DNA of 47,006 nucleotides from Paracoccaceae bacterium (GTDB lineage: Bacteria; Pseudomonadota; Alphaproteobacteria; Rhodobacterales; Rhodobacteraceae). A program made the translations under genes and the position numbers. The DNA lies in assembly GCA_902606585.1 (NCBI GenBank), contig CACLGX010000012.1:1-47006 (forward strand), written 5' to 3'. This document shows positions 30,484-44,312 of the stretch, one piece after another. The notes below the pieces were generated by a model. The model was not told the origin of the DNA, searched no databases, and worked only from the letters and a program-made list of their open reading frames with translations. Positions within the stretch are counted from its first letter, which is position 1; each line of letters opens with the position of its first letter.

Positions 30484-30559
<76 letters not shown>

Positions 30560-30626
30560 TCTACTCTTCTATGTATGTAAATAACCCTTTAATAACAGAC
30601 ATTTACAAGATTGTCTAATATAAAAG

Positions 30627-30647
30627 TGTACATGTTTTTGTACATGT
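30627..30647. repeat. TGTACATG repeat pair upstream of the integrase
   Basis: Two copies of GTACATG (30,628-30,634 and 30,640-30,646), each containing the palindrome TGTACA, flank a T-run. The 13-bp core TGTTTTTGTACAT recurs inverted at about 37,822-37,834. It lies between tRNA-Val and the integrase start, and could be an integrase arm site or an operator. Confidence 0.4.
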
Positions 30648-30683
30648 GTATATTGGTGTTGATGAGAGTTAGAGGGCTTTTAT

Positions 30684-32420
30684 TTGGCACTACTTCTAGA
30701 AAGATTCAGTTATCCTGAACCACACCTTAGACCACGTAATGGGATTTGGCGTTGCAGAGTTTACATACCAGAGGCGTTATCAACTCTTTTTGGCACAACA
30801 AACTACCTAGAAAAGACACTCTCCACTTCGAATAAATCGCTTGCTGAGAAGCTGCTATGGCGCAAGGCAAATGAGATTTATGATAAGTTTGATCAGAAGC
30901 AGATGGAATACCTAGAGCATCAGTATGCTGAACAACTACGAACACAAAAAACATTAGATGCACATGTGCAAAAAAGGATCATTAACTTTGCAAATGCCTT
31001 TAGTGTTCCCAGTATTGAACTCGTAGAAACTACTAGCTTGGATGAACTGAAAGCCCACAGAGATACATTAGAAACGTTTGCAAGTGTCTTGGTAAATACT
31101 CTTCCTGACCCTACTACATCAAAAGGACAGTCGTTCTATACACAGGTCTACGGTAGAGACTTAGGATCTTGGGAGCTACCAAAAGAAGATACCCCTAAAA
31201 GGATGGTCGGTGGTTGGCAAGGACAGGAGGTAAAAGTTGGTGCTACTGATAACGACAGGATGGATACGGGCTTTACGAAAGGCCAAATAAAAGCAGCTAT
31301 TAAATATAAATCATATTCGGTTCACAGCTTCTGGTGTGACCTGTTTATACTAGCGGCAGATAAGCAAAGATTAAAGCCACCTACTCTACCGACACCTGAG
31401 AAAATGTGGAGTAAAGCATATGAAGACGCTAAAGAAGAAGTGGTTAACTTTTATAAGACCATAGGTGCTGAAGACTTATTACCTGTTGAGGAAGATTTAA
31501 CTTCAGAACTTTTGAAGGAGTCTGACAGACCACGCACAACAGATGATCCTCTTCCCAAAAAGATAACAAGCTACTTCGATAGTTGGGAGAATGTCCTAGT
31601 AAGAGACTATGAAGTGGGTTCCTCATCCTACAGAAAACTGCGTAAGGGCATCAGACTATTTGTGGAACTTGTAGGAGATTTGCAGATAGAAGAACTAGAA
31701 CCTTTCCATGCATTTAGTTTTGCTGACAGACAGTTAGAAGAGAACCCTAAAGTCTCTAAGTCTGTGCTTAAAGATAACCAATGGGCTGCATCTAGTTTTC
31801 TAAAACATCTTGTTGAAAAGGGTCTGATCAAGGTCAATCCATTTGCCTCTGTAAGATTAGGTGAAAGGAGAGGTGTAAAAACCCGTCACTATCAGGACTT
31901 CAAAAGGGAACAACTCTTTGATGTTTTTAACCATGATTGGAGCGAGGAAGACAGATTGTTCTTATCCATATTGGTTACAACAGGTATGAGAAGTTGGGAG
32001 GCTGCATCTTTAACTTGGGAGCAGTATAACGATACCGAGTATCAAGGTATTAGGTATTTTGATCTTACAAAAGCAAAAGTGAAGACAGAGGGTTCAAAGA
32101 GGAAAGTACCGTTGCACCCTGCCCTAATACTGCCACCAAAGAAAACTAAAGGCAGATTGTTCTCATACGCAAAAGGGCATGAGAATGATGTTATAAACGC
32201 TGTGCTAACTGAGATGTTTGGTAATGATAGATTAAAAATACACTCGTTTAGACGTACTCTTAAAAAGCATATGAGAGATGCTGGCATACCTATGGATGTA
32301 AATCACCACTACATAGGGCATGGACTTGGTGACACTAGCCCTAATGCGTACCTAGGTATGAGCGTTGATGCTGTGTACGAAGGTATCTGTAAAATGAGTC
32401 ATCCTTACCTTAAAGGATAA
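30684..32420 (+). CDS. Tyrosine recombinase, island integrase
   Basis: The 578-residue integrase has an N-terminal SAM-like DNA-binding part (about 280-390, including SSYRKLRKGIRLFVELVG) and a C-terminal catalytic domain. The catalytic residues visible are Arg436 (TTGMRSWEAASLTW), a Lys near 470 (GSKRKVPLHP), His520-X2-Arg523 (HSFRRTLKKHM), a His in IGHGLGDT and nucleophile Tyr near 555 (NAYLGMS). The TTG start at 30,684 has an AGAGGG ribosome site. The DUF6538-like N-terminus (RNGIWRCRVYIP) is common in alphaproteobacterial island integrases. It lies beside tRNA-Val and is convergent with the polymerase-like gene. Confidence 0.92.
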   Translation: MALLLERFSYPEPHLRPRNGIWRCRVYIPEALSTLFGTTNYLEKTLSTSNKSLAEKLLWRKANEIYDKFDQKQMEYLEHQYAEQLRTQKTLDAHVQKRIINFANAFSVPSIELVETTSLDELKAHRDTLETFASVLVNTLPDPTTSKGQSFYTQVYGRDLGSWELPKEDTPKRMVGGWQGQEVKVGATDNDRMDTGFTKGQIKAAIKYKSYSVHSFWCDLFILAADKQRLKPPTLPTPEKMWSKAYEDAKEEVVNFYKTIGAEDLLPVEEDLTSELLKESDRPRTTDDPLPKKITSYFDSWENVLVRDYEVGSSSYRKLRKGIRLFVELVGDLQIEELEPFHAFSFADRQLEENPKVSKSVLKDNQWAASSFLKHLVEKGLIKVNPFASVRLGERRGVKTRHYQDFKREQLFDVFNHDWSEEDRLFLSILVTTGMRSWEAASLTWEQYNDTEYQGIRYFDLTKAKVKTEGSKRKVPLHPALILPPKKTKGRLFSYAKGHENDVINAVLTEMFGNDRLKIHSFRRTLKKHMRDAGIPMDVNHHYIGHGLGDTSPNAYLGMSVDAVYEGICKMSHPYLKG

Positions 32421-32453
32421 ACCCTTGTTATCTAATGTCTCTTAGCAGAAGAA

Positions 32454-33848
32454 CTATATAGCGTTACGCATTCCAGTAGAGCATTGTTCTAATAAATACC
32501 TTCCCTGCATTCTAACTTTAGATTTAGTTTTACTCTCTACGCTTACAGCTACTTTAAGGTTTAATTGAGGTAGGTTTTTTTTACTCTGATAGGTAGCAAC
32601 GTATTTAGAGAACTCAGCCCTAAAAGTTTTAACTGCGATAGACTGTTGCTTTTCTTTTACTAACACACAGTCATGGATAGGATATGCTACAACACCCTGC
32701 CCTTTTAACTCGACAAGAGTGTTAGTTAGGATGTTTGCTTCGTGAAAGGATAAAGCGTCTATAAAGTTAAAATATTCTTTGTTGAGATCGTTTAAAGCAG
32801 GGTACATATCCAAGGCTAGATCACGTATTAAAGTGAACTCCTCAACATTTTCCAGGATGTTGTTTGGCTGCTTGGATGGCTCACGTTTGTTAGGATTACC
32901 AGTGCCAATTAGCTCCACAAATACTTGCTTCACCTTATCTCTAGCATTCTCAATATTAGGAAGCTGATCCACCAAACATTGATACGCATCTGTCCACGTT
33001 TCACCAATAAGCATGGGCTTGCTAACAAGACAGGACAACAGGGTTGGCAGCGAAGCATTTAGATCAATCTCACACACTGGCTCTTCATCTATTGTGAACT
33101 GCAAGCGTTGGTCAGAAGAAATATTACTCCATTTTCCGTACCAACGGCCTCCTGACTTGATTGAGGCATTGTGGAATACCCTAGTAGCTGCTGCGTAATA
33201 TTCTTTTTGGATGGGATTGTATAAGGGGTGTTGCTGCCAATAGGCAGTCATTTCTTTTACTGGTCTTACTGCCTTTGAGTATTCTGACCTAAAGGTAGAT
33301 TTGACTTTGCTGATGCCCATGCGCTGCCGTTGCTCGCCTTGGCTCTTGCGGTCTAGTCTTTCTTCCCAAGTTTCAGCTTCATTAACTTGCGCTAGTGGGA
33401 GATTAGCCTCGACAAAGATAGCATCATCCAAACCTTTTACCATTGCCGTAACTTCAGATGTTGGGTTGATCACTGGCTGCTTTACACCTGTCATTAGCTC
33501 AAATTCTGACGGTGTTACTCCAAAGCTTTCCATGATCTGTTGTTCAAGGAGTTCTTTTTTTCTTTTAGTCGTATCTGAAAGCAAGCCATGTTCCATTAGT
33601 AGGCCACGAACCTTATTGATTACCTTAACGCCAACATTTGGATAGTGGCTGTAAAACTTTAGGTTCCTATTCTCATTACCTACCAACCAATAGAAAGGTG
33701 TGCTGTCAGCTGTTTTAGCCATGGCAAGGAAAGACGCCAAAACAATCTCATGCTTTTGATTCAACGCTAAACCAATTTGTTCAGCTATGGATTGAACTAA
33801 ATCAGAGGCCGCTTTGTTATAAGGAAGGTATGAAGGTCGGTAGTGCAT
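32454..33848 (-). CDS. Unrecognised protein with family-A polymerase-like palm motifs
   Basis: I do not recognise this 464-residue protein by name. Its second half has motifs in the order expected for a polymerase palm of the DNA Pol I/T7 RNAP type. They are GGRWYG at 233-238, a motif-A-like CEIDLNASLPTLLS with Asp262, a motif-B-like stretch ARDKVKQVFVELIGTG at 302-317, and motif-C-like YPIHDCVLV with His392-Asp393. The N-terminal 200 residues are helical without known motifs. It has no exonuclease motifs that I can see. It is convergent with the integrase (33 bases between the stops) and divergent from a small basic protein. A replication, priming or repair role in the island is inference. 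Confidence 0.6.
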   Translation of the reverse strand: MHYRPSYLPYNKAASDLVQSIAEQIGLALNQKHEIVLASFLAMAKTADSTPFYWLVGNENRNLKFYSHYPNVGVKVINKVRGLLMEHGLLSDTTKRKKELLEQQIMESFGVTPSEFELMTGVKQPVINPTSEVTAMVKGLDDAIFVEANLPLAQVNEAETWEERLDRKSQGEQRQRMGISKVKSTFRSEYSKAVRPVKEMTAYWQQHPLYNPIQKEYYAAATRVFHNASIKSGGRWYGKWSNISSDQRLQFTIDEEPVCEIDLNASLPTLLSCLVSKPMLIGETWTDAYQCLVDQLPNIENARDKVKQVFVELIGTGNPNKREPSKQPNNILENVEEFTLIRDLALDMYPALNDLNKEYFNFIDALSFHEANILTNTLVELKGQGVVAYPIHDCVLVKEKQQSIAVKTFRAEFSKYVATYQSKKNLPQLNLKVAVSVESKTKSKVRMQGRYLLEQCSTGMRNAI

Positions 33849-33933
33849 TAGTTTGCATTAGAGCAGAATGGTCTACTAACAAACCCCAACATGCAAATAT
33901 TGTCATTCACCATTTCAAAACTATCATTTCGCT

Positions 33934-34125
33934 ATGGTAAGACGAACTTATGAATCTGATGCTGCAAAGATAGAAGATGTAGATGATCTTGACGATCTTG
34001 TAGCTGACAAGCGTGAGGCATGGAGGGCAACTTCTGATAACGCAAGACGTAGGCAGCGTAGATATAAGAAACGTCTAACTAAAAGATTAATTCTATTGGA
34101 AGCTTTTGAAGGACTAATAGAATGA
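33934..34125 (+). CDS. Small basic protein, hypothetical
   Basis: The 63-residue protein has an acidic N-terminal half (KIEDVDDLDDLVADK) and an Arg/Lys-rich C-terminal helix (RRRQRRYKKRLTKRL). It has no signal or membrane segment. It is divergent from the polymerase-like gene, with 85 bases between the starts. The stop overlaps the ATG at 34,122, but the next gene more likely starts at 34,149. Nucleic-acid binding is plausible from the charge pattern alone. Confidence 0.55.
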   Translation: MVRRTYESDAAKIEDVDDLDDLVADKREAWRATSDNARRRQRRYKKRLTKRLILLEAFEGLIE

Positions 34126-34148
34126 TTTTTTTTACCAAGGGGGCAATA

Positions 34149-34550
34149 ATGCAGGAAACTTATTTTAAACAGCTAATCATATTTAAGGTTTTATTGTTTG
34201 TTTTGATAATTATTTGGGGCGGCACGGTACAAATGAACGATGGAAATAATTCTGAGGTCAACAATTTTTCAACTATTAGAAATTTATTATTTGCTCTATT
34301 TTCTCTTTCTTATTTCTTTGCTTCCTACAAAATTTACAAATTTAAAAATGTAGGTAAAAAATTATTTGTACCGCTAGTTTTGACTTTTATTATTTTAGGC
34401 TTCCTAGGTGAGTTTTTGTATTCTCTTGAGATAAATCAAGACCTTTTTTACTTGATAATTTTTTATATTATTTCACCACTGTTTTTTGTTGTTCAGGGAA
34501 TAGTGGCTGGAATGTTGTATTTCTCAGAATGTAGTAGCAATTTTAGCTAA
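34149..34550 (+). CDS. Four-helix membrane protein, hypothetical
   Basis: The 133-residue protein has four predicted membrane helices (for example FKVLLFVLIIIWGG, LLFALFSLSYFFASY, PLVLTFIILGFLGEF and IIFYIISPLFFVVQGIVAG). The ATG at 34,149 is chosen because AAGGGGG lies five bases upstream. The earlier in-frame ATG at 34,122 has no ribosome site. It is 13 bases from the next gene, so the two are probably cotranscribed. The family is not recognised. Confidence 0.65.
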   Translation: MQETYFKQLIIFKVLLFVLIIIWGGTVQMNDGNNSEVNNFSTIRNLLFALFSLSYFFASYKIYKFKNVGKKLFVPLVLTFIILGFLGEFLYSLEINQDLFYLIIFYIISPLFFVVQGIVAGMLYFSECSSNFS

Positions 34551-34563
34551 ATAAGGAGAAATT

Positions 34564-35364
34564 TTGAGTTTACGGTTTATATCAAACTTCCTTTTTCTTG
34601 TTTATTTACCAAACTTCGTTTTTGCAGAGGGAATACAAGGCTTAACCGAAGAGAATTTTGGTGAGCGCTTCTATGGTGTTTATCTTGGTGAATTTAAACT
34701 AGGTTACGTGAGCCATGAGGTTAGCCAAACTGAACATACAGTTACTCAAAATTTTTCAATGAATATGCGCATAACACTTTCTGAAGAAGAGCAGACGCAA
34801 CATAAAGCTAAATACGCTTTTTCTCAGATTATTTCTCGTTATCAGTTTGATAAAAAAACTGGCCTACTCAATGAAATGACAAAAGCTGATGGAAAAAAAT
34901 ATTATGCTGATTATGACTCTCTTTTAAAAAGTAATCACTTCAAGGGGGAAATATCGACCTTAACCGCAAAATATAAAGGTGACTTCTCTTATGAGGTTTT
35001 AACAAATAGTGAAGACGAAGAAACGTCTAAGCTTCTTAAATTACCCAAACTTCATATGAATGATTACTTTGCTGAGATAAACTTTATTTTATCAAAGCCT
35101 GAAATTGGAGAAACCAGATCCATAGAAGTTTTTGATCTAGATTTTGAAAAAGAAGTTTTTCTGGGCGCAAACTTGACCCTTCAACAAAAAGTAAGAGGGT
35201 TAGGAGGGAATTACGAATATATTATTCAAGAAGATATAGGCGATGAAACTTTTACATACACCGTAGATCGATATGGCAATGTTATTGGAGCGGAAATTTT
35301 TGGTTTGAACATAATCCTTGAACCAAAAGAACAGGCATTCACACTAGATGCCAAAAATATTTAG
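34564..35364 (+). CDS. Secreted protein of unknown function, beta-rich
   Basis: The 266-residue protein has a signal peptide (about 1-21, ending FVFAEG). The predicted mature form is beta-strand rich, starting ERFYGVYLGEFKLGYVSHEV. That pattern resembles the extracytoplasmic N-terminal beta domains of some transglutaminase-like proteins, but no catalytic domain follows. It starts with TTG at 34,564, six bases after AAGGAGA. It probably forms a pair with the upstream membrane protein. The location would be the periplasm or outer membrane. Confidence 0.65.
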   Translation: MSLRFISNFLFLVYLPNFVFAEGIQGLTEENFGERFYGVYLGEFKLGYVSHEVSQTEHTVTQNFSMNMRITLSEEEQTQHKAKYAFSQIISRYQFDKKTGLLNEMTKADGKKYYADYDSLLKSNHFKGEISTLTAKYKGDFSYEVLTNSEDEETSKLLKLPKLHMNDYFAEINFILSKPEIGETRSIEVFDLDFEKEVFLGANLTLQQKVRGLGGNYEYIIQEDIGDETFTYTVDRYGNVIGAEIFGLNIILEPKEQAFTLDAKNI

Positions 35365-35382
35365 TATTTATTAATTACATCA

Positions 35383-35502
35383 CTAGAAAGTTGTAACAAA
35401 AGGTGCGGCCCCTTTGTCACCTAGTCGCTTTTTAAGCGTATCAGCAACGAGATCAAAGTAATCAGGCTTTGGTCTAAATCTTACAGTTGATATTGTCTTC
35501 AT
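35383..35502 (-). CDS. 39-residue protein, truncated ABM-like, hypothetical
   Basis: An ATG frame at 35,502 has GGAG eight bases upstream and starts three bases after the stop of the ABM-like gene. It encodes MKTISTVRFRPKPDYFDLVA and a short helix, then stops at 35,383. The start resembles strand 1 plus helix 1 of a dimeric alpha/beta-barrel protein, so it may be a truncated paralogue. It is the third gene of a minus-strand cluster (35,820, 35,505, 35,383). Confidence 0.5.
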   Translation of the reverse strand: MKTISTVRFRPKPDYFDLVADTLKKRLGDKGAAPFVTTF

Positions 35503-35504
35503 CT

Positions 35505-35813
35505 TTAGCTCCAGTTAAACGTAAAACCCGTAACGGCTTCAGTTCTACTGCCATTTTCATCCTTTTGTAGAAGGTGGTCCACGCTATCTAACCACGCCAA
35601 ACCTTCATCTTGTTCCCCGATAAGAACGTCCATGTTTGGACATATCATGATCTGGATGAAGCTACCGTCATCTAGCTTAGTAAACTTAACAGTCGCTTTA
35701 TCGGCAAAGCCACTTGCCTTGTTTATCTCAACAAGTTTTTTCAGTTCTTCTTCGAACTGGTCCCCACAGCCTTCAAGTGGTCTATACTTTATGATGGACA
35801 GAGTTTCTTCCAT
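35505..35813 (-). CDS. ABM-like dimeric alpha/beta-barrel protein
   Basis: The 102-residue protein has a ferredoxin-like beta-alpha-beta pattern (SIIKYRPLEGCGDQFEEELK, FIQIMICPNMDVLI, GLAWLDSVDHLLQ) typical of the antibiotic biosynthesis monooxygenase/dimeric barrel superfamily. No cofactor or metal site can be named, so the activity is unknown. It starts six bases after the 35,820 gene ends and is followed closely by the 39-residue frame, so the three are one operon. Confidence 0.65.
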   Translation of the reverse strand: MEETLSIIKYRPLEGCGDQFEEELKKLVEINKASGFADKATVKFTKLDDGSFIQIMICPNMDVLIGEQDEGLAWLDSVDHLLQKDENGSRTEAVTGFTFNWS

Positions 35814-35819
35814 ATCTAA

Positions 35820-36185
35820 TTAACCTGACTTCTTAGCTTTTCTTTCAGCTTCAAAAAATTGCCTATCTTTTTCTGTGTATTCGGCAACAATCTCTGCGTT
35901 TGGGTCTTGGAAAAAGTAATTTAGATCTCCTTCGTAGTAAAAAGTATCTTTTACAGTTATAGCCACAGCATCTTGCCATTTCTGTCTTCCAACCAAGTTT
36001 TTTTCAGCTTCTTCATAACTCTCATATATTGCTAAGGACATTACAGAAAGTGGCCCAGTTTTAACATTGATAACTACCTGAGCGTTTGGGAAGTATTCTT
36101 TTTGTGTAGCAAGATACAATTTTTGAGCGCCTTTAAGAGCTTCATCACTTGTAAACTCAATCATAGTTATTCTACCAATAGACAT
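35820..36185 (-). CDS. Small alpha/beta protein, paralogue of the gene at 42,992
   Basis: The 121-residue protein begins MSIGRITMIEFTSDEALKGA and has blocks NAQVVINVKTGPLSVMS and DTFYYEGDLNYFF. These align directly with the protein at 42,992 (MSIARITMMEF, NAQTVINVRTGPTSILS, DSFYYEGDITYFE). The fold looks like a dimeric alpha/beta barrel. The function is unknown. It heads a three-gene cluster on the minus strand. The extra charged C-terminal tail (about residues 105-121) is absent from the paralogue. Confidence 0.7.
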   Translation of the reverse strand: MSIGRITMIEFTSDEALKGAQKLYLATQKEYFPNAQVVINVKTGPLSVMSLAIYESYEEAEKNLVGRQKWQDAVAITVKDTFYYEGDLNYFFQDPNAEIVAEYTEKDRQFFEAERKAKKSG

Positions 36186-36188
36186 AGT

Positions 36189-36323
36189 TTAACATTCCTT
36201 TTCCAAGTCACTTTTCAGCCAGTGCTTTACAACCTCAACAGCCAAGCACTTCTCGCATAGGTTATTACTTATGTCTTTAGCATCAAAGAGTTTCTTACAA
36301 GAGGAGCGTGTGTTTGTCGTCAC
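36189..36323 (-). CDS. 44-residue Cys-containing protein, possible zinc knuckle
   Basis: A GTG frame from 36,323 to 36,189 encodes a small protein with Cys9, Cys23, Cys26 and Cys44 (SSCKKLFDA, NNLCEKCLAVEVVKHW, EKEC). The CxxC pair with a preceding Cys suggests metal binding. GGAG lies ten bases upstream. The gene overlaps the 3' side of the 36,326 gene region closely and ends three bases before the start of the 36,185 gene. The similar motif in the protein at 37,309 (FLCGECLQKVKAEFE) suggests a relationship. Confidence 0.45.
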   Translation of the reverse strand: MTTNTRSSCKKLFDAKDISNNLCEKCLAVEVVKHWLKSDLEKEC

Positions 36324-36325
36324 AA

Positions 36326-36622
36326 CTAACTCGCTCCAGATAGGAAAATTAAAAATAACAAAGCTACTATGATCCAGCCAATAATAGTTAACTGCCTTAA
36401 ATATCTAACCTTGTCTAAACTGAGCTTAGCAATCCTCGACAGGTTTAGATTCTGGTGTATTTGCACTTGGCGCTTCGGTAGATATTCCCACTGTTCTGGT
36501 GTCCACTCAGTAAATCTGTTTTCCCACTCTTCATCTTTTATTTGAACAGTTGCCTCATGCACATGGTATGGATCATTAAAACCTTCTGTCCACAGCTTAT
36601 CACTTTTCCAGTAATACTTCAT
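36326..36622 (-). CDS. C-tail-anchored small membrane protein, hypothetical
   Basis: The 98-residue protein has a charged, Trp-rich N-terminal part (YYWKSDKLWTEG, EEWENRFTEWTPEQWEYLPK) and a single C-terminal membrane helix (TIIGWIIVALLFLIFL). The start overlaps the stop of the serine recombinase gene by four bases (ATGA), so translation is coupled to the recombinase. The function is unknown. Confidence 0.6.
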   Translation of the reverse strand: MKYYWKSDKLWTEGFNDPYHVHEATVQIKDEEWENRFTEWTPEQWEYLPKRQVQIHQNLNLSRIAKLSLDKVRYLRQLTIIGWIIVALLFLIFLSGAS

Positions 36623-37182
36623 AAGTTGGCCTCCTTAACTATCCGATAATAACTGGTCTTGCTTATATTCAACTCACGCATGATATGGGCAGGTTTAAAA
36701 CCTTCTTTTATTGCCATCATAACCATATCTGTTTTGTTTCTAGCGGTGGGTTTACGGCCTTTATATTTACCCTCTGCCTTTGCTTTGGCTATACCTTCAC
36801 GTTGACGCTCTAACATCATCTCACGCTCAAATTGTGAGACAGATGACATGACATTTAATATTAGTTTTCCTGTGGCATTGGACGTATCAATACTTGTGCC
36901 ACCCATATCTAATATGACTAGCGAGGCATCCGCTTGATTAACAGTGTCTATGATCTCGCCTAGATGCCTGACGCTCCTAGCCAAGCGATCAAGTTTTGTG
37001 ACCACTATTTTGTCACCGCTACGAAGAGAACCTAAAGCTACGTTGAGTTGTTCACGCTCACCAACGCTTGATACTTGCTCTTTGAATATCTTCTCACAGC
37101 CATATTCTTTTAATTGTTTTACTTGTGCATCCAACCCTGCGACTTGCTCTATGGTGGATGTCCTAGCTACACCTATTAACAT
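36619..37182 (-). CDS. Serine recombinase (resolvase/invertase family)
   Basis: The 187-residue protein has the N-terminal catalytic domain with Ser9 in GVARTST, the conserved GDKIVVTKLDRLARS block near 56-70, and the helix-E region FEREMMLERQREGIAKAKAEGKYKGRKP. A C-terminal helix-turn-helix (PAHIMRELNISKTSYYRIVK) completes it. This is the DNA invertase/resolvase plan. It could resolve multimers, invert a promoter or move the element. An inverted-repeat region lies directly upstream (37,217-37,302) and could be its target or operator. It is divergent from the zinc-ribbon-like gene at 37,309. Confidence 0.9.
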   Translation of the reverse strand: MLIGVARTSTIEQVAGLDAQVKQLKEYGCEKIFKEQVSSVGEREQLNVALGSLRSGDKIVVTKLDRLARSVRHLGEIIDTVNQADASLVILDMGGTSIDTSNATGKLILNVMSSVSQFEREMMLERQREGIAKAKAEGKYKGRKPTARNKTDMVMMAIKEGFKPAHIMRELNISKTSYYRIVKEANL

Positions 37183-37216
37183 ATCTATATTCCCATTAGC
37201 ATCTAAGACTAAATGG

Positions 37217-37302
37217 AACTATAGTACCAAAAATAGAAAATACAATCCTATTGGTACTATATAGTATAGTTCTCTTAGACCTTGGTCTATTGGCACTATA
37301 TA
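37217..37302. promoter_or_regulatory. Inverted and direct repeats between divergent genes, candidate res/operator
   Basis: AACTATAGTACCAA at 37,217-37,230 is inverted as TTGGTACTATATAGTATAGTT at 37,251-37,271. A third copy, TTGGCACTATATA, lies at 37,290-37,302. The region separates the recombinase start from the divergent gene at 37,309. Multiple inverted subsites beside a resolvase gene resemble a res site, or a self-regulated promoter. Confidence 0.55.
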
Positions 37303-37308
37303 CAACGT

Positions 37309-37488
37309 ATGAGAGTTCGCACCAAAGATTGCTATAAATGCTCTGCACCGAAAGAGGTTCTTTATCGTTGCAGATATAAAGATTTGCAGGAATGGGTGTT
37401 CCTGTGTGGAGAATGCTTGCAAAAGGTAAAGGCAGAATTTGAAAGCACGTACCAATACGGTGGAACGTGGAAAGCTAAGAAGAAGTAA
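37309..37488 (+). CDS. Zinc-ribbon-like small protein, hypothetical
   Basis: The 59-residue protein has two CxxC knuckles, DCYKCSAPK near residues 7-10 and LCGECLQK near 33-36, joined by a strand-rich linker. This is the pattern of a single zinc ribbon. The ATG at 37,309 is preferred over the upstream in-frame TTG at 37,282, which lies within the repeat region. It is divergent from the serine recombinase. A nucleic-acid- or protein-binding role is likely but not shown. Confidence 0.55.
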   Translation: MRVRTKDCYKCSAPKEVLYRCRYKDLQEWVFLCGECLQKVKAEFESTYQYGGTWKAKKK

Positions 37489-37490
37489 AG

Positions 37491-37733
37491 TTATTCTCTT
37501 TCTTTTGTATTGCTCCCTCTCATAGCAAACTCTGAGCCTCCGACATAAACAAGTCGCATCTCAATACCACCCTTCCGTTTACACGCTGTGCATTTAGCAT
37601 TCTTGCGTACTTGATCTAGGGTAATGTTTTCACCATATGCCTCGACTAGTTCTATCACAGCTACCATGCGTGAATGATTGCACCGACATCGCAGATACAA
37701 GTGGTGAGGAAGCACATTTTTAAGTTGAATCAT
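37491..37733 (-). CDS. Small zinc-finger-like protein, hypothetical
   Basis: The 80-residue protein has CRCNH near residues 16-20 and CTACKRKGG near 47-55, so four Cys/His ligands can be paired as one zinc site. The rest is helical (MVAVIELVEAYGENITLDQV). Proteins with CxCxH and CxxCxxKG spacing are common hypotheticals in alphaproteobacterial islands, to my knowledge without a function. It is convergent with the zinc-ribbon gene, with two bases between the stops. Confidence 0.55.
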   Translation of the reverse strand: MIQLKNVLPHHLYLRCRCNHSRMVAVIELVEAYGENITLDQVRKNAKCTACKRKGGIEMRLVYVGGSEFAMRGSNTKERE

Positions 37734-37882
37734 ACTAATGACAATGAGAACAAAACAGGAACAGAGTCAATTAGTTTTAGATGGGGTGCGAGCGCCACTG
37801 GGGGTGGCATAGATATGGTATATGTACAAAAACACAGAAGTGGTTTCTAATAGAGATAGCTAAAAATGAAGGAAACTAAACA

Positions 37883-38329
37883 ATGAAGACAAAAATACCG
37901 CCTCCTATTCTAGCGCTCGTAATGATCGGTTTAATTTATCTCTCTTCTTTATTTATTGAACCAACCACATTTAATTATCAAGGCTCATTGAGTATCTTGG
38001 TTCTTATTTTGGGTTTCGCATGTTTGTTACCTTCTTTTAAATTGTTTGCGAAATTCAAAACAACTATCACCCCTTTAACGCCTTCCAATACTACTGCGCT
38101 AGTAACTGAAGGTATGTATCGGTATTCAAGAAACCCAATGTACCTAGGGTTGCTATTAATAACTATCGCTTCAACAATTTGGTTTGGAACTTGGTTAGGT
38201 ATAATCATTAATATTGTATTTATTTTTCTTATTAATTTTTTACAAATCATTCCTGAAGAGGAAGCACTTCTGGAAATTTTTGGTGAGGAATATGAAGAGT
38301 ACAAAAAGAATGTGAGAAGGTGGATTTGA
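37883..38329 (+). CDS. ICMT/phospholipid methyltransferase-like membrane protein
   Basis: The 148-residue protein has about four membrane helices and the family block GMYRYSRNPMYLGLLLI near 75-91, with Glu and His-like positions toward the C-terminus (PEEEALLEIFGEEYEEYKK). This matches the isoprenylcysteine carboxyl methyltransferase/PEMT family, which transfers methyl groups from SAM to lipids or prenyl thiols. The natural substrate of bacterial members is mostly unknown. The ATG follows AAGGAAA. It stands alone between the zinc-finger gene and a terminator-like hairpin. Confidence 0.8.
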   Translation: MKTKIPPPILALVMIGLIYLSSLFIEPTTFNYQGSLSILVLILGFACLLPSFKLFAKFKTTITPLTPSNTTALVTEGMYRYSRNPMYLGLLLITIASTIWFGTWLGIIINIVFIFLINFLQIIPEEEALLEIFGEEYEEYKKNVRRWI

Positions 38330-38449
38330 TAGGAAGAAATGGGCTACTAGAACAGTTAAGTGATCCAAATAGATATTTATAAAGTATTACCTTTCGACAA
38401 ATATCTTACCTCCCCGTTCGATATGTCATACTGAGCCTCGTGTCATTCC

Positions 38450-38474
38450 CCCCGACATGGGGCTTTTTCTTTGG
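38450..38474 (+). terminator. Hairpin with T-run, probable terminator
   Basis: CCCC-CGACAT-GGGG followed by CTTTTTCTTT forms a short GC stem with a T-rich tail. It lies about 120 bases after the methyltransferase-like gene. The second half belongs to a 35-bp sequence repeated at 40,710. Confidence 0.5.
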
Positions 38475-38494
38475 CGTGTTCACAGGCTCATAAA
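38460..38494. repeat. 35-bp repeat, copy 1 (copy 2 at 40,710-40,744)
   Basis: GGGCTTTTTCTTTGGCGTGT and the following 15 bases match 40,710-40,744 with two mismatches. Each copy begins at the right arm of a terminator-like hairpin and continues past the T-run, so more than a generic terminator is conserved. Confidence 0.8.
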
Positions 38495-38545
38495 AGCCTA
38501 ACAGATTTTATTTGACGGACGTTTAATCATATGGGAGGTTTAGAC

Positions 38546-38698
38546 ATGATGTCAGATTTTCAAGATACTAATTGTGAATGCTGTAGTAGTGACTGTAATT
38601 GTAGTAGTTGTAATTGCGGTGATCTAGATGATTGTGTGACTTGTGAATGCTGTGAAACAGATTGCACCACAGAATCTGATCGCTGTATCTGCGATTAA
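38546..38698 (+). CDS. 50-residue acidic Cys-rich peptide, metallothionein-like
   Basis: The frame starts at ATG 38,546, seven bases after GGGAGG, and ends at TAA 38,698. Fourteen of 50 residues are Cys (10, 12, 13, 17, 19, 22, 24, 30, 33, 35, 36, 40, 47, 49), arranged as CxCC, CxC and CxxC. The blocks NCECCSSDCNC and TCECCETDCTT look like an internal duplication. Apart from Cys it is rich in Asp and Glu, with one Phe and no Trp or Tyr. There is no signal peptide. Known bacterial metallothioneins (SmtA/BmtA) have His and Lys and fewer CxCC motifs, so this would be a different type. Metal binding is inference. Confidence 0.7.
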   Translation: MMSDFQDTNCECCSSDCNCSSCNCGDLDDCVTCECCETDCTTESDRCICD

Positions 38699-38715
38699 AA
38701 ACTATCTCAGGTATA

Positions 38716-38842
38716 TGGAGTCAGCCCTAGCCATTAACTCTACTGTGTGAGGCTGCTCAGTGGGTGTATGAGCCTGGAAGGAACCTCTGTAAGGTGCATG
38801 CTTCATCCACTCGCACTTGGTAGACTCAGCATTTACTCCATG
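38716..38842 (+). ncRNA. Candidate structured RNA with complementary hairpin loops
   Basis: Outer arms ATGGAGT (38,716-38,722) and ACTCCAT (38,836-38,842) can close the element. Inside, hairpin GCTCA/TGAGC (38,756-38,774) shows AGTGGGTG across its loop. Hairpin GGTGC/GCACT (38,794-38,818) shows CATCCACT in its loop. The two loop sequences can pair over eight bases with one G-U, like a kissing interaction. It starts 18 bases after the Cys-rich gene and ends 60 bases before the 38,903 gene. No known riboswitch was recognised. The strand is uncertain. Confidence 0.35.
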
Positions 38843-38902
38843 TATTAAAAATAAGTATAGATAGAATATTATTCATAATTTTTAAATCAAAGGGATCAAA
38901 AA

Positions 38903-39199
38903 ATGGCAAAATATATAGTTTACACAACGTGGTATCATGAAAAGGGATTGAGGCCTGCGGAAGAATTTCAAGAAGGTATGCGCAAAAATGTTAAGCCACA
39001 TTCCCCTGCAGTAGATTGTATATGGTGGAAGAAAGATGATAACCATCATCAATCTATAATGATTTATTCTTCTGAGGAATCAGCAAACCAACATAGAGCG
39101 CAACTAGAAGAATTTCGTAAAGACAGTTCAAGCGAATTGTCAATAAAGATGGTTGAAGAAACTATGGGCCCTCTTCTTGCTCAACTGTCAGAATTATAA
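38903..39199 (+). CDS. Small alpha/beta-barrel-like protein, hypothetical
   Basis: The 98-residue protein starts with a strand (KYIVYTTWYHEKGL), followed by helix, strand (AVDCIWWKKDDNHHQSIMIY) and helix (EESANQHRAQLEEFRK) segments. This matches the ABM/dimeric barrel pattern of its island neighbours. AAAGGGA precedes the ATG. A run of two His and two Trp in the middle is unusual, but no function can be assigned. It lies downstream of the structured element. Confidence 0.6.
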   Translation: MAKYIVYTTWYHEKGLRPAEEFQEGMRKNVKPHSPAVDCIWWKKDDNHHQSIMIYSSEESANQHRAQLEEFRKDSSSELSIKMVEETMGPLLAQLSEL

Positions 39200-39402
39200 C
39201 AAAAATAAAAAATTTCATCTTTGTGAAAGCTGCTTGTTTAATAGAGCTGTGAAAAGATTAGCGTATTCCTAACAGCAACGTAGGTTCAGGTTGGAATAGC
39301 CATATATTTATAGCCTTTTCTCTATACAGGCTTGAAAAGCTGATGAAAAAGGATGAACGAAGAAAATGAGGAGTAGAGGTTTACTGGTGAGATCTGCCTA
39401 TA

Positions 39403-39639
39403 ATGTTTACTAAATCGAATTTAATAAGAAATGGAGTGCCGTCATTAGTTGCTTTTGTTATTCTTTATTTCTTAGGTGATAGGTATGTGCTTCCCGCTGT
39501 ATTCAGTGCTACAGATAGCGGTAATATGAATTTAGTGATATGGCTTGCTGTTGATGCAGTGATGTTAATATCAACATTCTATGGAACTAGATGGGCTTTA
39601 TTCAAGTTTGGCCTTATCGATAATTGGCTAAGTAAATAG
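39403..39639 (+). CDS. Two-helix membrane protein, hypothetical
   Basis: The 78-residue protein has two membrane helices (VPSLVAFVILYFLGDRYV and VIWLAVDAVMLISTFYG) joined by a polar loop. It ends 13 bases before the NTF2-like gene at 39,653, so the pair may be cotranscribed. The 203 bases upstream (39,200-39,402) are AT-rich without a visible gene. Confidence 0.55.
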   Translation: MFTKSNLIRNGVPSLVAFVILYFLGDRYVLPAVFSATDSGNMNLVIWLAVDAVMLISTFYGTRWALFKFGLIDNWLSK

Positions 39640-39652
39640 AGGTTCATTGGTG

Positions 39653-39985
39653 ATGGTTTTAGAGAAATTTATCGAAGGCATAACCAACCAGGATTTGGCT
39701 CTTTTAGAAAGTCTTTTGCATGAAGATATGCTCTTCGTGCAAGAAACAACTTTAGAGACAAAAGAAGAGTGGATGAGAGATACCAAAGAACAATTTAAAA
39801 ATGGTATGCTTGATGCAACTAAAATGGGAGTCACAGCAAAATTTGAAACAAAAGATATGGGAGCACTTGAGGTGACCATGAAGAAAGATGGCCATTTGAT
39901 AACATTTTCAAACGTCTTTTTATATAAAGATAATAAAATTTACAGACATTTGATAAATGTGGTTACAGATAATTTAACTGAGTGA
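39653..39985 (+). CDS. NTF2-like (SnoaL/DUF4440-type) small protein
   Basis: The 110-residue protein has LESLLHEDMLFVQETTLETK, parallel to LHHEDFMFIRETELL in the gene at 19,836, and the strand-rich C-terminal half of the NTF2 fold. ATG 39,653 is listed; GTG 39,650 and TTG 39,647 are in frame and closer to the AGAGG site, so the true start may be up to six bases earlier. A small-ligand-binding role is likely; no catalytic residues are assigned. Confidence 0.7.
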   Translation: MVLEKFIEGITNQDLALLESLLHEDMLFVQETTLETKEEWMRDTKEQFKNGMLDATKMGVTAKFETKDMGALEVTMKKDGHLITFSNVFLYKDNKIYRHLINVVTDNLTE

Positions 39986-39989
39986 ATAA

Positions 39990-40055
39990 ATGAAACACAT
40001 CCTACTCACCATATTACTTATCTTAAGTGCTACGGCTGTAAGTGCTGATGAATAA
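39990..40055 (+). pseudogene. Signal-peptide-only frame, probably a truncated secreted gene
   Basis: A 21-codon ATG frame encodes a complete signal peptide (MKHILLTILLILS, then ATAVSA) and ends right after the predicted cleavage site with DE and a stop. A fragment of the same coding sequence (TAVSAD) occurs at about 41,730. A full gene that lost its mature part is the simplest reading; a free signal-like membrane peptide is the alternative. Confidence 0.45.
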
Positions 40056-40095
40056 TTTTTGTGAAAAGACCACTGACGCTCAAATACAAAAAATT

Positions 40096-40114
40096 CCTTA
40101 CGCTTAACGTAAGG
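40096..40114 (-). terminator. Perfect 7-bp hairpin, terminator-like on the minus strand
   Basis: CCTTACG-CTTAA-CGTAAGG is flanked on the low-coordinate side by an A-run, which becomes a T-run on the minus strand. No minus-strand gene ends near it, so it may be a relic of the recombination here, or it may act weakly in both directions. Confidence 0.4.
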
Positions 40115-40181
40115 TACTAACTAGTAGTTTATTTTTAATCATATTACCTAGTCTCATAATTTAACTCTGAAAGGAAAGATT

Positions 40182-40649
40182 ATGAGAAAATTATTGATAG
40201 CTTTTGTTGCTATAATAATGCCATCCCTGGCACTTTCTGGTGGCCACTCTGGCCTGGGTGGAACTGGTACAGGCGTAGTGGTTGATATGAAAACAATGGA
40301 GGGCAAATCAGGAGTTCTAGTACACCAGACTACTAGCGATGTTTGGGTTTATGACAATCCACCAGAAGGTTTTCCAAAAGCTACAAGCGCAACATGCAGT
40401 CAATTTATTACTTTTGCGATGGGACAACAGCAGCAACCTGTGGGAGGCGCTTTAGCATGCCAAGTAGTAGACCCAGATGGCGATGTGTCAATACACATGG
40501 GGGCTTTTCAGGGTGACGGAACAGTATTGATAACTCAAGTTTCAGGTACTGGTAAATGGGCCGCTTTAGTTGGCTCTCAGGTAATAGGTAAAACAGACAT
40601 TCAAATTGACGCAAAAACATCTACATACTCATGGACGGCAGTAAACTAA
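40182..40649 (+). CDS. Secreted beta-rich protein, hypothetical
   Basis: The 155-residue protein has a signal peptide (about 1-19, ending PSLALS) followed by a Gly/His start GGHSGLGGTGTGVVVDMKT. The rest is strand-rich with two Cys (TCSQFITFAMG and ALACQVVDP) that could form a disulfide. The tail TSTYSWTAVN may be a final strand. The ribosome site AAAGGAAAG is good. A hairpin terminator follows at 40,661. No family is recognised. Confidence 0.65.
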   Translation: MRKLLIAFVAIIMPSLALSGGHSGLGGTGTGVVVDMKTMEGKSGVLVHQTTSDVWVYDNPPEGFPKATSATCSQFITFAMGQQQQPVGGALACQVVDPDGDVSIHMGAFQGDGTVLITQVSGTGKWAALVGSQVIGKTDIQIDAKTSTYSWTAVN

Positions 40650-40660
40650 AAAAGCACAGA

Positions 40661-40720
40661 AGCCCTTTACTCACCGAAGCCTTCTTTCAATGAATGGCTG
40701 CAGTGGAAAGGGCTTTTTCT
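40661..40720 (+). terminator. Terminator-like hairpin after the secreted-protein gene
   Basis: AGCCCTTT (40,661-40,668) pairs with AAAGGGCT (40,706-40,713), enclosing a smaller AGCC/GGCT hairpin and followed by TTTTTCTTT. It begins 12 bases after the stop codon. The tail is copy 2 of the 35-bp repeat. Confidence 0.6.
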
Positions 40721-40744
40721 TTGGCGTGTCCACAGGCTCGTAAA
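40710..40744. repeat. 35-bp repeat, copy 2
   Basis: This copy matches 38,460-38,494 with two mismatches. Downstream, 40,745-40,875 has no gene. It contains a GGCAGC/GCTGCC hairpin (40,811-40,831) inside an ACATGG/CCATGT pair (40,792-40,797 and 40,851-40,856). That layout loosely recalls the element following copy 1. Confidence 0.8.
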
Positions 40745-40875
40745 TACTCTCAGGCTATCATGAGTCATATGAACTGCTAACCGCACTGTGGACATGGTTA
40801 TATTGAGTCTGGCAGCGTGTTAAATGCTGCCTTCCCATCATTTATTTTGTCCATGTATGCTTAAAGATTAATCTG

Positions 40876-41571
40876 TTACAGATCTTTATAATCGTCTGGG
40901 TAATATTTTCCTATGTACCATCGCCCACACCCTAGTATCACCCACGAACATACCATAATAAAAAATATGTATTTGTTTACCAGCATGGCTGCTCCCATCG
41001 ATTTTTTTGCGAAATATACCATTACACCGAAAGCCAAGACGTTTCCAAATACTATGAGAAAAGTGCCTGACCACGTGATCATAAATTTCCAAATGAACTG
41101 ATCCATTGAGGGACCAAAAGGCATTTGGCCCGTTTTTGTTTGCAAGTGTTTATTAGGAAATAAAAACGCAACAAACGCAGTGGCCAAAAGCGCAAAGGTC
41201 AAAATCGTGGCACTTGTTTTTTCGGAGTAATAATAAAAAATTAGTGACAAGGGAGCAGCAATAATCCAAATGAAGAGTATACCTCTCGTCCTTTTTAAAA
41301 ACTGTTTATAATTTTCCTCGTCTTTTATATCCATTGAGGGAGCAAACGGCTTTGTAACTATATCTGTCTTCTTGTGTTGCTTGGAAAAAATATTTTTACT
41401 GGGAAACAAAATCGCAACAAATACCGAAGCAACAGTTGCAAAAGCTAAAATCGTGATACTCGTTCTTTCAAAAGTAGAATACAACATCAGTGATAAAGGA
41501 AGAGCAATAACCCAAATTAAAATCAGACCTCTTGTCTTTTTTATAAAGTTTTTGTTTTTATCATCTTTCAT
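40876..41571 (-). CDS. Membrane protein with an internal tandem domain duplication
   Basis: The 231-residue protein contains two copies of a two-helix unit: residues 9-81 (FIKKTRGLILIWVIALPLSL to PFAPSMD) and 91-157 (FLKRTRGILFIWIIAAPLSL to PFGPSMD). A non-repeated C-terminal pair of helices follows (about 160-220). Each unit has a K-[KR]-TRG motif, two membrane helices, an [IF]LFP loop and PF[AG]PSMD. Six helices are expected in total. The start is ATG at 41,571. No family is recognised. It is the only minus-strand gene between 38 and 44 kb. Confidence 0.65.
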   Translation of the reverse strand: MKDDKNKNFIKKTRGLILIWVIALPLSLMLYSTFERTSITILAFATVASVFVAILFPSKNIFSKQHKKTDIVTKPFAPSMDIKDEENYKQFLKRTRGILFIWIIAAPLSLIFYYYSEKTSATILTFALLATAFVAFLFPNKHLQTKTGQMPFGPSMDQFIWKFMITWSGTFLIVFGNVLAFGVMVYFAKKSMGAAMLVNKYIFFIMVCSWVILGCGRWYIGKYYPDDYKDL

Positions 41572-41690
41572 AGTATAATCATATTCAAAATATAGTAGCT
41601 CTCAAGCCTTTAAAGATGCTTCTACTAAGGTCTGATTTACAAGCGATGCACCAAGGACCTCTGTCTTGGTAAAGCGCATGTTGCTCCAGA

Positions 41691-41730
41691 TACACCAGAC
41701 GAGCCTATAGTATGATCCAAATAGAAGTTA
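41691..41730. repeat. 40-bp repeat, copy 2, joined to a signal-peptide gene fragment
   Basis: This copy matches 19,494-19,533 with two mismatches. Directly after it, TACGGCTGTTAGTGCTGAT matches the signal-peptide frame at about 40,031-40,049 with one mismatch. The short frame from ATG 41,713 (MIQIEV then TAVSADTSETIKC) is therefore a mosaic of two sources. It ends overlapping the start of the gene at 41,765. Confidence 0.75.
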
Positions 41731-41764
41731 CGGCTGTTAGTGCTGATACTTCAGAAACAATAAA

Positions 41765-41995
41765 ATGCTAAAGTACCTTACATACTTCTCTTTATTAGTT
41801 ACAATTATTAGCGGTGCTGTTTGTTACTTCAGCACAAATGAAGAAAGCTTCTTCTATTACTTGATTACCTCTATTGTTTCTGGAGCTATATTCTGCGTGT
41901 TAATAGCAATTAAAATGATAACTGCGGATACAGGTAAGATTGACCATAAGAAGCACATTGGTACCTTCTTTGATGGTGGCGGTGGTGGATCATGA
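41765..41995 (+). CDS. Two-helix membrane protein with Gly-rich tail, hypothetical
   Basis: The 76-residue protein has two membrane helices (TYFSLLVTIISGAVCYF and YYLITSIVSGAIFCVLIAIKM) and a cytoplasmic-type tail HKKHIGTFFDGGGGGS. Its start overlaps the end of the mosaic frame before it, and its stop overlaps the ATG of the next small membrane gene by four bases. The tight packing suggests a real, coupled pair. Confidence 0.6.
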   Translation: MLKYLTYFSLLVTIISGAVCYFSTNEESFFYYLITSIVSGAIFCVLIAIKMITADTGKIDHKKHIGTFFDGGGGGS

Positions 41996-42171
41996 TTACA
42001 GAAAACATAGCTGGAATTATATTAATCATATTGCTTGTTGGTCTGTTGTACATTTACAAAACTAGAGGTTTTACCAAGCATGGTAAGTTTGCAAAACCAT
42101 CTAATACATACTTCTGGTTTCAGATTGGCCTACTAGTCTTCCTATTTCTTTGGCAACCTTGGAAGGAGTAA
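41992..42171 (+). CDS. 59-residue two-helix membrane protein, hypothetical
   Basis: The ATG at 41,992 overlaps the previous stop (ATGA). The protein has helices AGIILIILLVGLLYIY and FQIGLLVFLFLWQPW with a basic loop KTRGFTKHGKF between them. The basic loop suggests both ends face the periplasm. It forms a translationally coupled pair with the 41,765 gene. Confidence 0.6.
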   Translation: MITENIAGIILIILLVGLLYIYKTRGFTKHGKFAKPSNTYFWFQIGLLVFLFLWQPWKE

Positions 42172-42554
42172 GAAACTACCCTATGACACAACGTCAATTA
42201 TACTTTTAATCGTTATTATTCGGAATTTAGATTTAGTTTGGTAAGCTTTATTAAAGTGTTAGATGATTGCAAACCAGGTCGTGAAAAAACCCTATCCTAT
42301 GGTAGTTCGGTTTGGGATAGCAGCAATTGTTAATTCCTTTGCTAATCTTTCTTTCGGGAGAAAAATATTGTTGGTAAGGTCTCTAAAACATTGGAACATT
42401 CGTTTATATTAAATTCGCAAAAAATTTAAATTAAACCACGCCCTAATCACAATTTTTTTTTAGTAATATTTTAATTGTTAATCTTATTATTGACTTACGG
42501 CTTTCTTATGTTTTCATCAAAAGTATTTAAACTAAGTTTATGAAAGGGATTGAA
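42172..42554. other. 383-bp AT-rich stretch with one weak small frame
   Basis: The only candidate is a plus-strand frame 42,263-42,412 (49 codons, ATG) encoding MIANQVVKKPYPMVVRFGIA followed by a short hydrophobic/basic tail. It has no ribosome site and is probably a remnant or chance. AAAGGGA at 42,543 serves the DUF1330-like gene. No other structure was seen. Confidence 0.4.
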
Positions 42555-42881
42555 ATGACTGTTTATTTAATTGCGGAAATAAAAGTTACAGATGATAAGT
42601 GGGTTCCAGATTATGCCGCACATGTTCATCCGCTTGTGGAAAAGCATGGCGGGAAGTACTTATCTCGAAGCGCTAACATCAAGGTTTTGGAAGGCGAGGA
42701 CAGGGGCAATACTTTTATCGCAATCTTACAGTTTCCAGACGCAACTTCTGCGGAGGCATTCGTAACCGACCCAGAGTATGTTCCACATGGCAAAGCGAGA
42801 AAAGAGGGTGCAATAAACAGTTTCCAGTTAATAGATGATACTGATGCAGCTGGCACGATACCGTACTTAACGGCTGGCTAA
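42555..42881 (+). CDS. DUF1330-like dimeric alpha/beta-barrel protein
   Basis: The 108-residue protein matches the DUF1330 layout: MTVYLIAEIKVTD strand, helix DYAAHVHPLVEKHGGKYLSR, strand NTFIAILQFPDATSAEAFV, then the DPEYVPHGKARKEG helix region. ATG 42,555 is chosen over 42,540 because AAAGGGA sits between them at the right distance. The function of the family is unknown. It heads a plus-strand cluster of three related small proteins. Confidence 0.75.
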   Translation: MTVYLIAEIKVTDDKWVPDYAAHVHPLVEKHGGKYLSRSANIKVLEGEDRGNTFIAILQFPDATSAEAFVTDPEYVPHGKARKEGAINSFQLIDDTDAAGTIPYLTAG

Positions 42882-42991
42882 CTTATAGCTTTGATTTCGT
42901 AAACTCAATAAAACGAAACACGTTCTTCTCAATATATAACACATCTGCGGCGCTGATGCTGTGAGCGCTAAAACTCATAAGGAAACTATTT

Positions 42992-43312
42992 ATGTCTATA
43001 GCCAGAATAACAATGATGGAATTTTTGTCAGAAAAGGAAATGGCCGAATCTGAAAATTTCTATCAAACGATACAAAAAGAATGGTTTGGTAATGCGCAGA
43101 CAGTTATTAATGTACGAACAGGCCCCACCTCGATTTTGTCATTTGCTGTATACTCCAGTTACGAAGATGCAGAGACTAACCTTACTAAAAGAAAAGAATT
43201 TCAGAAGATATTAAAAGATAAATTTACTGTCGTTGATAGTTTTTATTATGAGGGTGATATTACTTATTTTGAAAATTCTAAAGCGAATGAAATAAAAGTT
43301 GAGTGGAAGTAA
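42992..43312 (+). CDS. Small alpha/beta protein, paralogue of the gene at 35,820
   Basis: The 106-residue protein shares MSI(A/G)RITM(M/I)EF, NAQ(T/V)VIN, TGP and FYYEGD(I/L)(T/N)YF with the protein at 35,820-36,185. AAGGAAA precedes the ATG. Its stop directly abuts the ATG of the broken barrel gene at 43,313, repeating the order seen in the minus-strand cluster. The function is unknown. Confidence 0.7.
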   Translation: MSIARITMMEFLSEKEMAESENFYQTIQKEWFGNAQTVINVRTGPTSILSFAVYSSYEDAETNLTKRKEFQKILKDKFTVVDSFYYEGDITYFENSKANEIKVEWK

Positions 43313-43648: not shown

Positions 43649-43785
43649 AACTTACTGAAAAAATTTTATACTCATTCATATTTGTGGAATATTAGAAGGC
43701 TTATAAGTAAATATTTTTATTAGTTTTTATTGGATAACATTAAAAGTTTCAATCTTAGTTATGGTTTACTACTAGATATCTAAAG

Positions 43786-44310: not shown

Positions 44311-44312
44311 TA

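Follow-up and report, generated by a model that had tools for sequence, protein, structure and literature searches.

A divPolA2-family polymerase gene beside a tyrosine integrase: a probable backbone gene of small tRNA-integrated elements in bacteria

Polymerases of the divPolA2 type have been reported in barbaviruses and other Caudoviricetes phages (Virol J 2024, PMC11348598). The available text of that report describes a protein whose palm carries catalytic residues and whose N-terminal domain is of unknown kind; it has no exonuclease and no recognised thumb. Several paralogues occur per genome, lytic phages are among the carriers, and AUR84708 is the modelled representative; a role as repair DNA polymerase or as RNA polymerase has been proposed (PMC11348598). 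Mobile elements with a polymerase of their own are exemplified by the pipolins, which encode piPolB and one or more tyrosine recombinases, are bounded by att-like direct repeats in a tRNA gene and carry restriction-modification cargo (PMC7385651). Two further groups of small islands are the PICMI satellites, which carry AlpA and a primase (PMC10803314), and the tycheposons, which the available text of their description defines by a tRNA and a tyrosine recombinase and not by this polymerase (PMC10872708).

Here we analyse a bacterial member of the divPolA2 family, encoded in a 47,006-nucleotide stretch of DNA from a marine Paracoccaceae bacterium (the window, by which we mean the whole stretch). 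Taken together, sequence comparisons and predicted structure favour a reading in which a family-A-type polymerase belongs to the backbone of elements seated at tRNA 3' ends and would copy, prime or fill their excised DNA. The protein family itself is known; its genomic context in bacteria, an integrase and tRNA-end repeats, appears to be new, as our literature search, which had most subscription journals outside its scope, found no bacterial divPolA2 in tRNA-integrated elements. The open reading frame is real and lies on the minus strand. Its features are listed below in window coordinates, with conservation counted over 64 aligned family members.

32454 to 33848, minus strand: divPolA2-family polymerase-like open reading frame, 464 aa, ATG start; phrog_4756 match at E 3.4e-10, with a structure model and fold search as further evidence
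33249 to 33848, minus strand: N-terminal part, residues 1-200; only weak winged-helix matches
33135 to 33152, minus strand: upstream motif GGRWYG, residues 233-238; G234 in 64/64, R235 in 62/64; paired with TGRL by hhalign
33033 to 33074, minus strand: motif A, residues 259-272, with Asp262 in CEIDLNASLPTLLS; D in 63/64
32898 to 32945, minus strand: motif B-like helix ARDKVKQVFVELIGTG, residues 302-317, with R303 (R in 59/64) and K307 (K in 63/64); helix 302-316 in the model
32706 to 32750, minus strand: helix before motif C, SFHEANILTNTLVEL, residues 367-381, acidic at 370; helix 362-383 in the model
32658 to 32684, minus strand: motif C hairpin, residues 389-397, with H392-D393 in YPIHDCVLV; H in 60/64, D in 61/64

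The motifs quoted in the original prediction (GGRWYG, Asp262, the motif B helix and His392-Asp393) all sit at the residues it gave. Its assignment of the protein to an unknown family was wrong: the family is phrog_4756 (3.4e-10), which is the phage divPolA2. A weak match to a Thioclava plasmid led to the phage members, and with the plasmid relative as query 280 phage records were recovered, mostly from Vibrio and Rheinheimera phages. Against a profile of the bacterial members, AUR84708 scored 110.8 bits and Barba19A gp041 131.9 bits (the E-values of that comparison refer to two sequences only), and the protein family is therefore one already known; phage and bacterial members share the palm with its catalytic residues (PMC11348598). 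The window protein itself retrieved nothing from IMG/VR and nothing from phages by sequence search, and the query A2 likewise found nothing in IMG/VR. A Pfam search detected no domain in its 464 aa, PADLOC gave no match, NCBIfam returned a single chance match (0.16), and PF00476 was absent from the Pfam families listed for family members. Searched by sequence, solved structures gave nothing significant; an entry for DNA polymerase I stood at E 1.7. Over the N-terminal part, the profile matched AspA at E 0.58 and 0.85, which is not significant, and in Pfam HTH_24 was matched by 1 of 40 members (E 0.1). Its close relatives (best segments 38 to 47% identical) are found in a small number of Rhodobacteraceae/Paracoccaceae genomes, for the most part MAGs or single cells. 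Searched for more broadly, phrog_4756 turned up in 54 of 394 genomes from the window's family and in 25 of 398 drawn from its phylum, and the window's own genome holds three family copies. On a Sulfitobacter contig (L046, 5470-11031), one intact member is accompanied by several detached pieces over about 6 kb. Two IMG/VR members, at 775 aa (L067, 3215-5539) and 681 aa (L088, 365-2407), are far longer than the usual 400-500 aa and are possible fusions.

The predicted structure places this protein among the family-A polymerases. An AlphaFold model of the whole protein, built from 40 sequences, reached a pLDDT of 87.1 and a pTM of 0.86; a palm-only model (residues 200-452) reached 93.2 and 0.89. 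With the whole model, Foldseek matched 84 solved chains at E <=0.001, and the best 50 of these 84 are all family-A DNA polymerases; because only part of the protein aligns, the TM-scores are low, at 0.27-0.35 of query. The palm-only model matched 30 solved chains at the same threshold, with family-A DNA polymerases first (TM 0.44-0.58 of query) and DNA polymerase alpha after them at lower probability. Among predicted viral proteins the best matches were phage proteins of 400-450 aa, one of them named DNA polymerase (Barba31A). In the DSSP assignment D262 ends strand 256-263 and H392-D393 occupy the turn of a hairpin formed by 388-391 and 394-398, which is where motifs A and C lie in a palm. 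Motifs comparable to GGRWYG are TGRL in Pol I and DxRGRxY in T7-like RNA polymerases. When aligned by hhalign to five alphaproteobacterial Pol I sequences (E 1.5e-4, probability 52%), the family profile superimposed motif on motif: GGR on TGR, D262 on the motif A Asp, and HD on HD. Like Pol I, Pol nu, Pol theta and apPOL, the divPolA2 members have a palm and fingers fold, the A-B-C motif order, the R...K of motif B and the HD of motif C. The profile probabilities alone are modest; fold, motif order and conservation together make a family-A palm near certain, and the product of the open reading frame is almost certainly a divPolA2-family protein with a palm of this type. A compact palm in which motifs A, B and C follow one another, without an exonuclease, had been read from the sequence beforehand; the two models (pLDDT 87 and 93), the fold search led by family-A DNA polymerases and the profile-profile comparison, closer to Pol I (E 1.5e-4) than to RNA polymerases (E 0.0022), all bear out the palm, and a protein of only 464 aa with no Pfam domain probably has no exonuclease.

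Conservation defines what is constant in this palm and where it departs from its relatives. G234 and R248 are invariant, residue 370 is acidic throughout (D in 47 members, E in 17), and residue 394 is S in 52 of 64, so that an HDSF-type motif C is commonest. In Pol I and T7 RNA polymerase the nucleotide gate consists of two residues, one five positions beyond the Asp of motif A and one eight positions beyond the Lys of motif B. In our reference alignments the former is invariably Glu (PolA) or Gly (RNA polymerase) and the latter invariably Tyr. The divPolA2 members depart from both patterns: the first position is His in 49 of 64, Gly in 1 and Glu in none, with Leu in the window protein, and at the second 48 members have Asn and 2 have Tyr, with Gly in the window protein. 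Family-A DNA polymerases differ from this family in the Glu gate (DYSQIE; 0/64 here), in the motif B Tyr (missing here from 62/64) and in the exonuclease, which the members appear to lack. Conservation across the 64 members rules out a chance occurrence of the motifs.

Two other readings of the protein have to be weighed against these data. A T7/mitochondrial-type RNA polymerase, which would make element transcripts or replication primers, is suggested by the GR-Y upstream motif, the HDSF-type motif C and the acidic residue 370, which pairs with an Asp invariant in seven T7-like RNA polymerases. Moreover, PF00940 drew more A6 members than any other Pfam family, yet only 4 of 40 (best E 0.017), and an RNA polymerase has been considered for the phage members too (PMC11348598). 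The fold matches argue in the other direction: those among solved structures are DNA polymerases, and no RNA polymerase appears among the 50 matches listed for either the whole or the palm-only model. The hhalign comparison with the seven T7-like enzymes was also weaker (E 0.0022, probability 13%, confined to the motif C region) than that with PolA, and the gate Gly and Tyr of those enzymes are found in 1 and 2 of 64 members, respectively. We therefore consider an RNA polymerase unlikely. The second reading, a catalytically dead relic or a structural relative, draws on the loss of the PolA gate Glu and on the near absence of the Tyr at K+8, as well as on damaged copies. The motif C HD is replaced by SE in a copy on another contig of the same genome (L036, contig C29), by NQ in G001 (L007) and by YG in G002 (L002), and these copies are therefore probably inactive; in a further own-genome copy, on contig C30 (L008), the match is interrupted by a stop. 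Against a relic stand D262 (63/64), K307 (63/64) and D393 (61/64), held constant among members often <20% identical to the window protein, and the window copy retains every catalytic position. Asp262 and Asp393 are accordingly conserved as had been anticipated, and a dead enzyme is highly improbable.

The family-A-type polymerase gene lies within an island that begins at a tRNA gene, whose parts are as follows.

30484 to 30559, plus strand: tRNA-Val(tac), left border and probable integration site (ARAGORN, Rfam); synteny with G001 breaks after it
30560 to 30655, plus strand: stretch common to G008 and G010, probable common element end; blastn matches extend to 30655 and 30649
30684 to 32420, plus strand: tyrosine integrase with a DUF6538 N-terminal domain (PF00589 7.8e-08, DUF6538 4.2e-07)
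36619 to 37182, minus strand: serine recombinase (resolvase) inside the island, 187 aa (PF00239 1.1e-36)
30560 to 42483, no strand assigned: island of about 12 kb, right end approximate, from the comparison with G001

The integrase is directly downstream of tRNA-Val and convergent with the polymerase gene, with 33 bp between them; the island integrase proposed at the outset as the neighbour is indeed a tyrosine integrase. In G001 the lon-tRNA-Val segment matches the window at 91% up to 30560; 163 unmatched bases follow, and then the window sequence 42484-43669 at 94%. The roughly 12 kb with integrase, polymerase and serine recombinase are therefore absent there. G008 and G010 match at about 82% over the aligned stretch, which includes lon and the tRNA, and have about 90 bases past the tRNA in common with the window. 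Among 16 genomes of the genus, the window integrase occurs in one, the window's own. No second copy of the tRNA-Val end was found within the window, which leaves the right end approximate, decayed or outside the contig. We considered and dropped an intact att pair for the window, since no right repeat turned up. The stretch 42484-46067 (see also L252) follows the same tRNA-Val almost directly in G001 at 91-94% identity, which makes the site to the right of the tRNA a hot spot where DNA is exchanged. Since further relatives have different DNA at this position, G001 is not a clean empty site. Several other features of this region deserve mention. A 35-bp direct repeat, 94% identical, lies within the island (38460-38494 and 40710-40744). 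Small ORFs that by eye resemble antibiotic-biosynthesis-monooxygenase-type proteins occur as one pair inside it (35505-36185) and another just outside (42540-43312). At the contig end, 168-bp tandem repeats (46107-47006) and 33-bp repeats (45904-46115) lie inside a long minus-strand ORF, and the contig terminates within the repeats.

Is the proximity of polymerase and integrase a property of the family? Our first set comprised 95 member ORFs, 62 of them intact (>=380 aa), of which 34, the window included, have 5 kb of flank on both sides; the controls were 40 windows of 17 kb from the same genomes, placed at fixed contig fractions or round numbers and not drawn at random. A tyrosine integrase lies within 5 kb of 24 of the 34 members and of none of the 40 controls (Fisher 7e-12), a serine recombinase in 14 of 34 versus 0 of 40 (Fisher 3e-6), and either one in 27 of 34 versus 0 of 40. 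A second set of 20 regions, to which no flank filter was applied, yielded 18 intact members, 17 of them outside the window's family, after exclusion of a 341-aa piece (L279) and a region in which the family profile found no member (L280). Here a tyrosine integrase was within 5 kb in 13 of 18, a serine recombinase in 9 and either in 15; the 20 control windows had no integrase within 5 kb of the centre, one at the window edge, and no serine recombinase. Because flank ORFs, but no control windows, went into the iteration of the integrase and resolvase profiles, these profiles may favour the flanks; the PF00589 background provides an independent check: 123 matches in 7 genomes (~27.9 Mb), about one per 227 kb, or ~0.05 expected per neighbourhood.

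The association is frequent and not universal. Seven of the 34 members have neither recombinase within 5 kb, among them L188 and L189 of the same genus. The closest homologues within the genus are the four loci L188-L191, and in none of them does the examined flank contain a recombinase. The members therefore do not always sit beside a tyrosine integrase, as an invariable arrangement would demand, and what holds is the link to integrating elements (24/34 versus 0/40, 13/18 versus 0/20, and tRNA-end repeats at 22 loci). Arrangements vary as well. Where the integrase is within 500 bp (15 of 62 intact members), it is convergent at the polymerase 3' side in 8 and just upstream in tandem in 7. A quick tree, in which the window appears twice (W and L153) and the position of several long branches is unsure, shows at least 13 changes of layout and 20 of the serine recombinase. 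The association is therefore not one inherited gene pair, and a single ancestral integrase-polymerase unit is ruled out on that tree.

Complete elements in relatives provide the boundaries that the window shows on its tRNA side only. We examined 99 flank loci, 49 of which have a family member and a tRNA in the stretch. At 24 of these 49, 14 nt or more of the tRNA recur as a direct repeat; in 23 loci it reaches the last tRNA base and encloses the polymerase gene or pieces of it, as do the att repeats of pipolins, and in 22 it encloses the integrase too, the exception being L120. No tRNA-end repeat was seen in 10 tRNA-bearing control windows. Ten kinds of tRNA are used at the repeat-bounded loci (Lys, Gln, Gly, Leu, Ala, Asn, Ser, Cys, Arg and Met). 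In L116 and L122 it is the polymerase gene, and not the integrase, that adjoins tRNA-Gln, and the repeat lies at the opposite end; the L122 polymerase gene is broken, and no integrase was found there. With L122 and L129 left out on account of broken polymerase genes, the set comprises 21 elements of 6.1 to 14.2 kb (median 9.3). An integrase is present in 20 of them, or in all 21 with a slightly wider boundary, and a serine recombinase in 10. As the elements were found via the polymerase, its presence in all is by selection. ORFs overlapping the polymerase, integrase or recombinase apart, no further gene family occurs in more than 3 of the 21, and therefore no other candidate replication gene recurs. 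Among the cargo checked by profile, L157 has a type I methyltransferase with its specificity subunit, L132 an MmeI N-terminal piece together with an AAA ATPase, L262 an OLD/AriA-like ATPase and L182 a fibronectin-repeat protein; no profile matched two L158 genes and two further cargo genes.

Could the polymerase be cargo as well, for instance an anti-phage defence gene of the kind that collects next to integrases? Genes beside integrases often are cargo, other genes of these elements match defence models, and layout and partners are reshuffled on the tree. We nevertheless think this improbable: none of five family members tested with PADLOC was matched, the 21 two-ended elements share integrase and polymerase and no other constant gene, and lytic phages carry the gene too (PMC11348598). 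A backbone gene of small integrative elements is very probably what the divPolA2-family polymerase represents.

We propose the following model for these elements. A tyrosine recombinase would integrate them at the 3' end of tRNA genes and excise them as a circle. The excised DNA may then be copied, primed or second-strand-filled by the polymerase, multimers might be resolved by the serine recombinase, and the element would re-integrate. The elements would be a family-A counterpart of pipolins and carry cargo, in several examples restriction-modification or OLD/AriA-like ATPase genes. How directly the polymerase takes part in element DNA synthesis is the least settled step, and we judge a direct part and its opposite to be evenly balanced. 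The enzyme might instead serve integration or repair, filling gaps or the second strand during recombination, and leave the excised circle alone. Its closeness to the integrase (<=500 bp in the 15 of 62 intact members) and the lack of any recurrent initiator or helicase family in the elements are consistent with such a role, and repair has been proposed for the phage members (PMC11348598). Classical tRNA-site integration by tyrosine recombinases, on the other hand, needs no DNA synthesis, and we give this alternative a low probability.

Set beside known systems, the elements with a divPolA2-family polymerase resemble pipolins in plan, with a family-A-like instead of a family-B polymerase. The likeness extends to a polymerase of their own, a tyrosine recombinase, direct repeats at a tRNA gene and restriction-modification cargo; the differences are a family-A-like palm in place of the family-B piPolB, the use of many tRNA genes and a serine recombinase in 10 of 21 (PMC7385651). 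PICMI satellites and tycheposons are likewise small integrase-bearing islands of marine bacteria with little gene content (PMC10803314, PMC10872708). The PICMI satellites are set apart by their description, which gives them AlpA and a DUF3987/DUF5906 primase, whereas here no further gene family exceeds 3 of 21 elements (PMC10803314). The phage divPolA2 genes differ in context, having variable neighbourhoods and, in the available text, no integrase link, whereas the bacterial members are found in tRNA-integrated elements with a tyrosine integrase and often a serine recombinase (PMC11348598).

What are the implications of a polymerase in this context? In a bolder version of our model, which we put forward tentatively and with more doubt than belief, these self-replicating integrative elements would make up a class that is large and as yet unnamed. 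Their sole replication protein would be a thumbless family-A polymerase whose nucleotide gate is non-classical and which starts without a primer, in parallel to the family-B enzyme of pipolins; a tyrosine integrase would serve integration at tRNA ends and a serine recombinase would deal with multimers, and phages would hold captured copies. The function of divPolA2 was left open in the available text of its description (PMC11348598), and the recurrent element context gives it a concrete, testable role; the complete elements of 6-14 kb are systems in which the polymerase gene could be deleted. If the model is true, a family-A branch would be added to the polymerase-bearing mobile elements, of which the pipolins represent family B, and the gene would become a marker by which small cargo islands of Alphaproteobacteria could be located.
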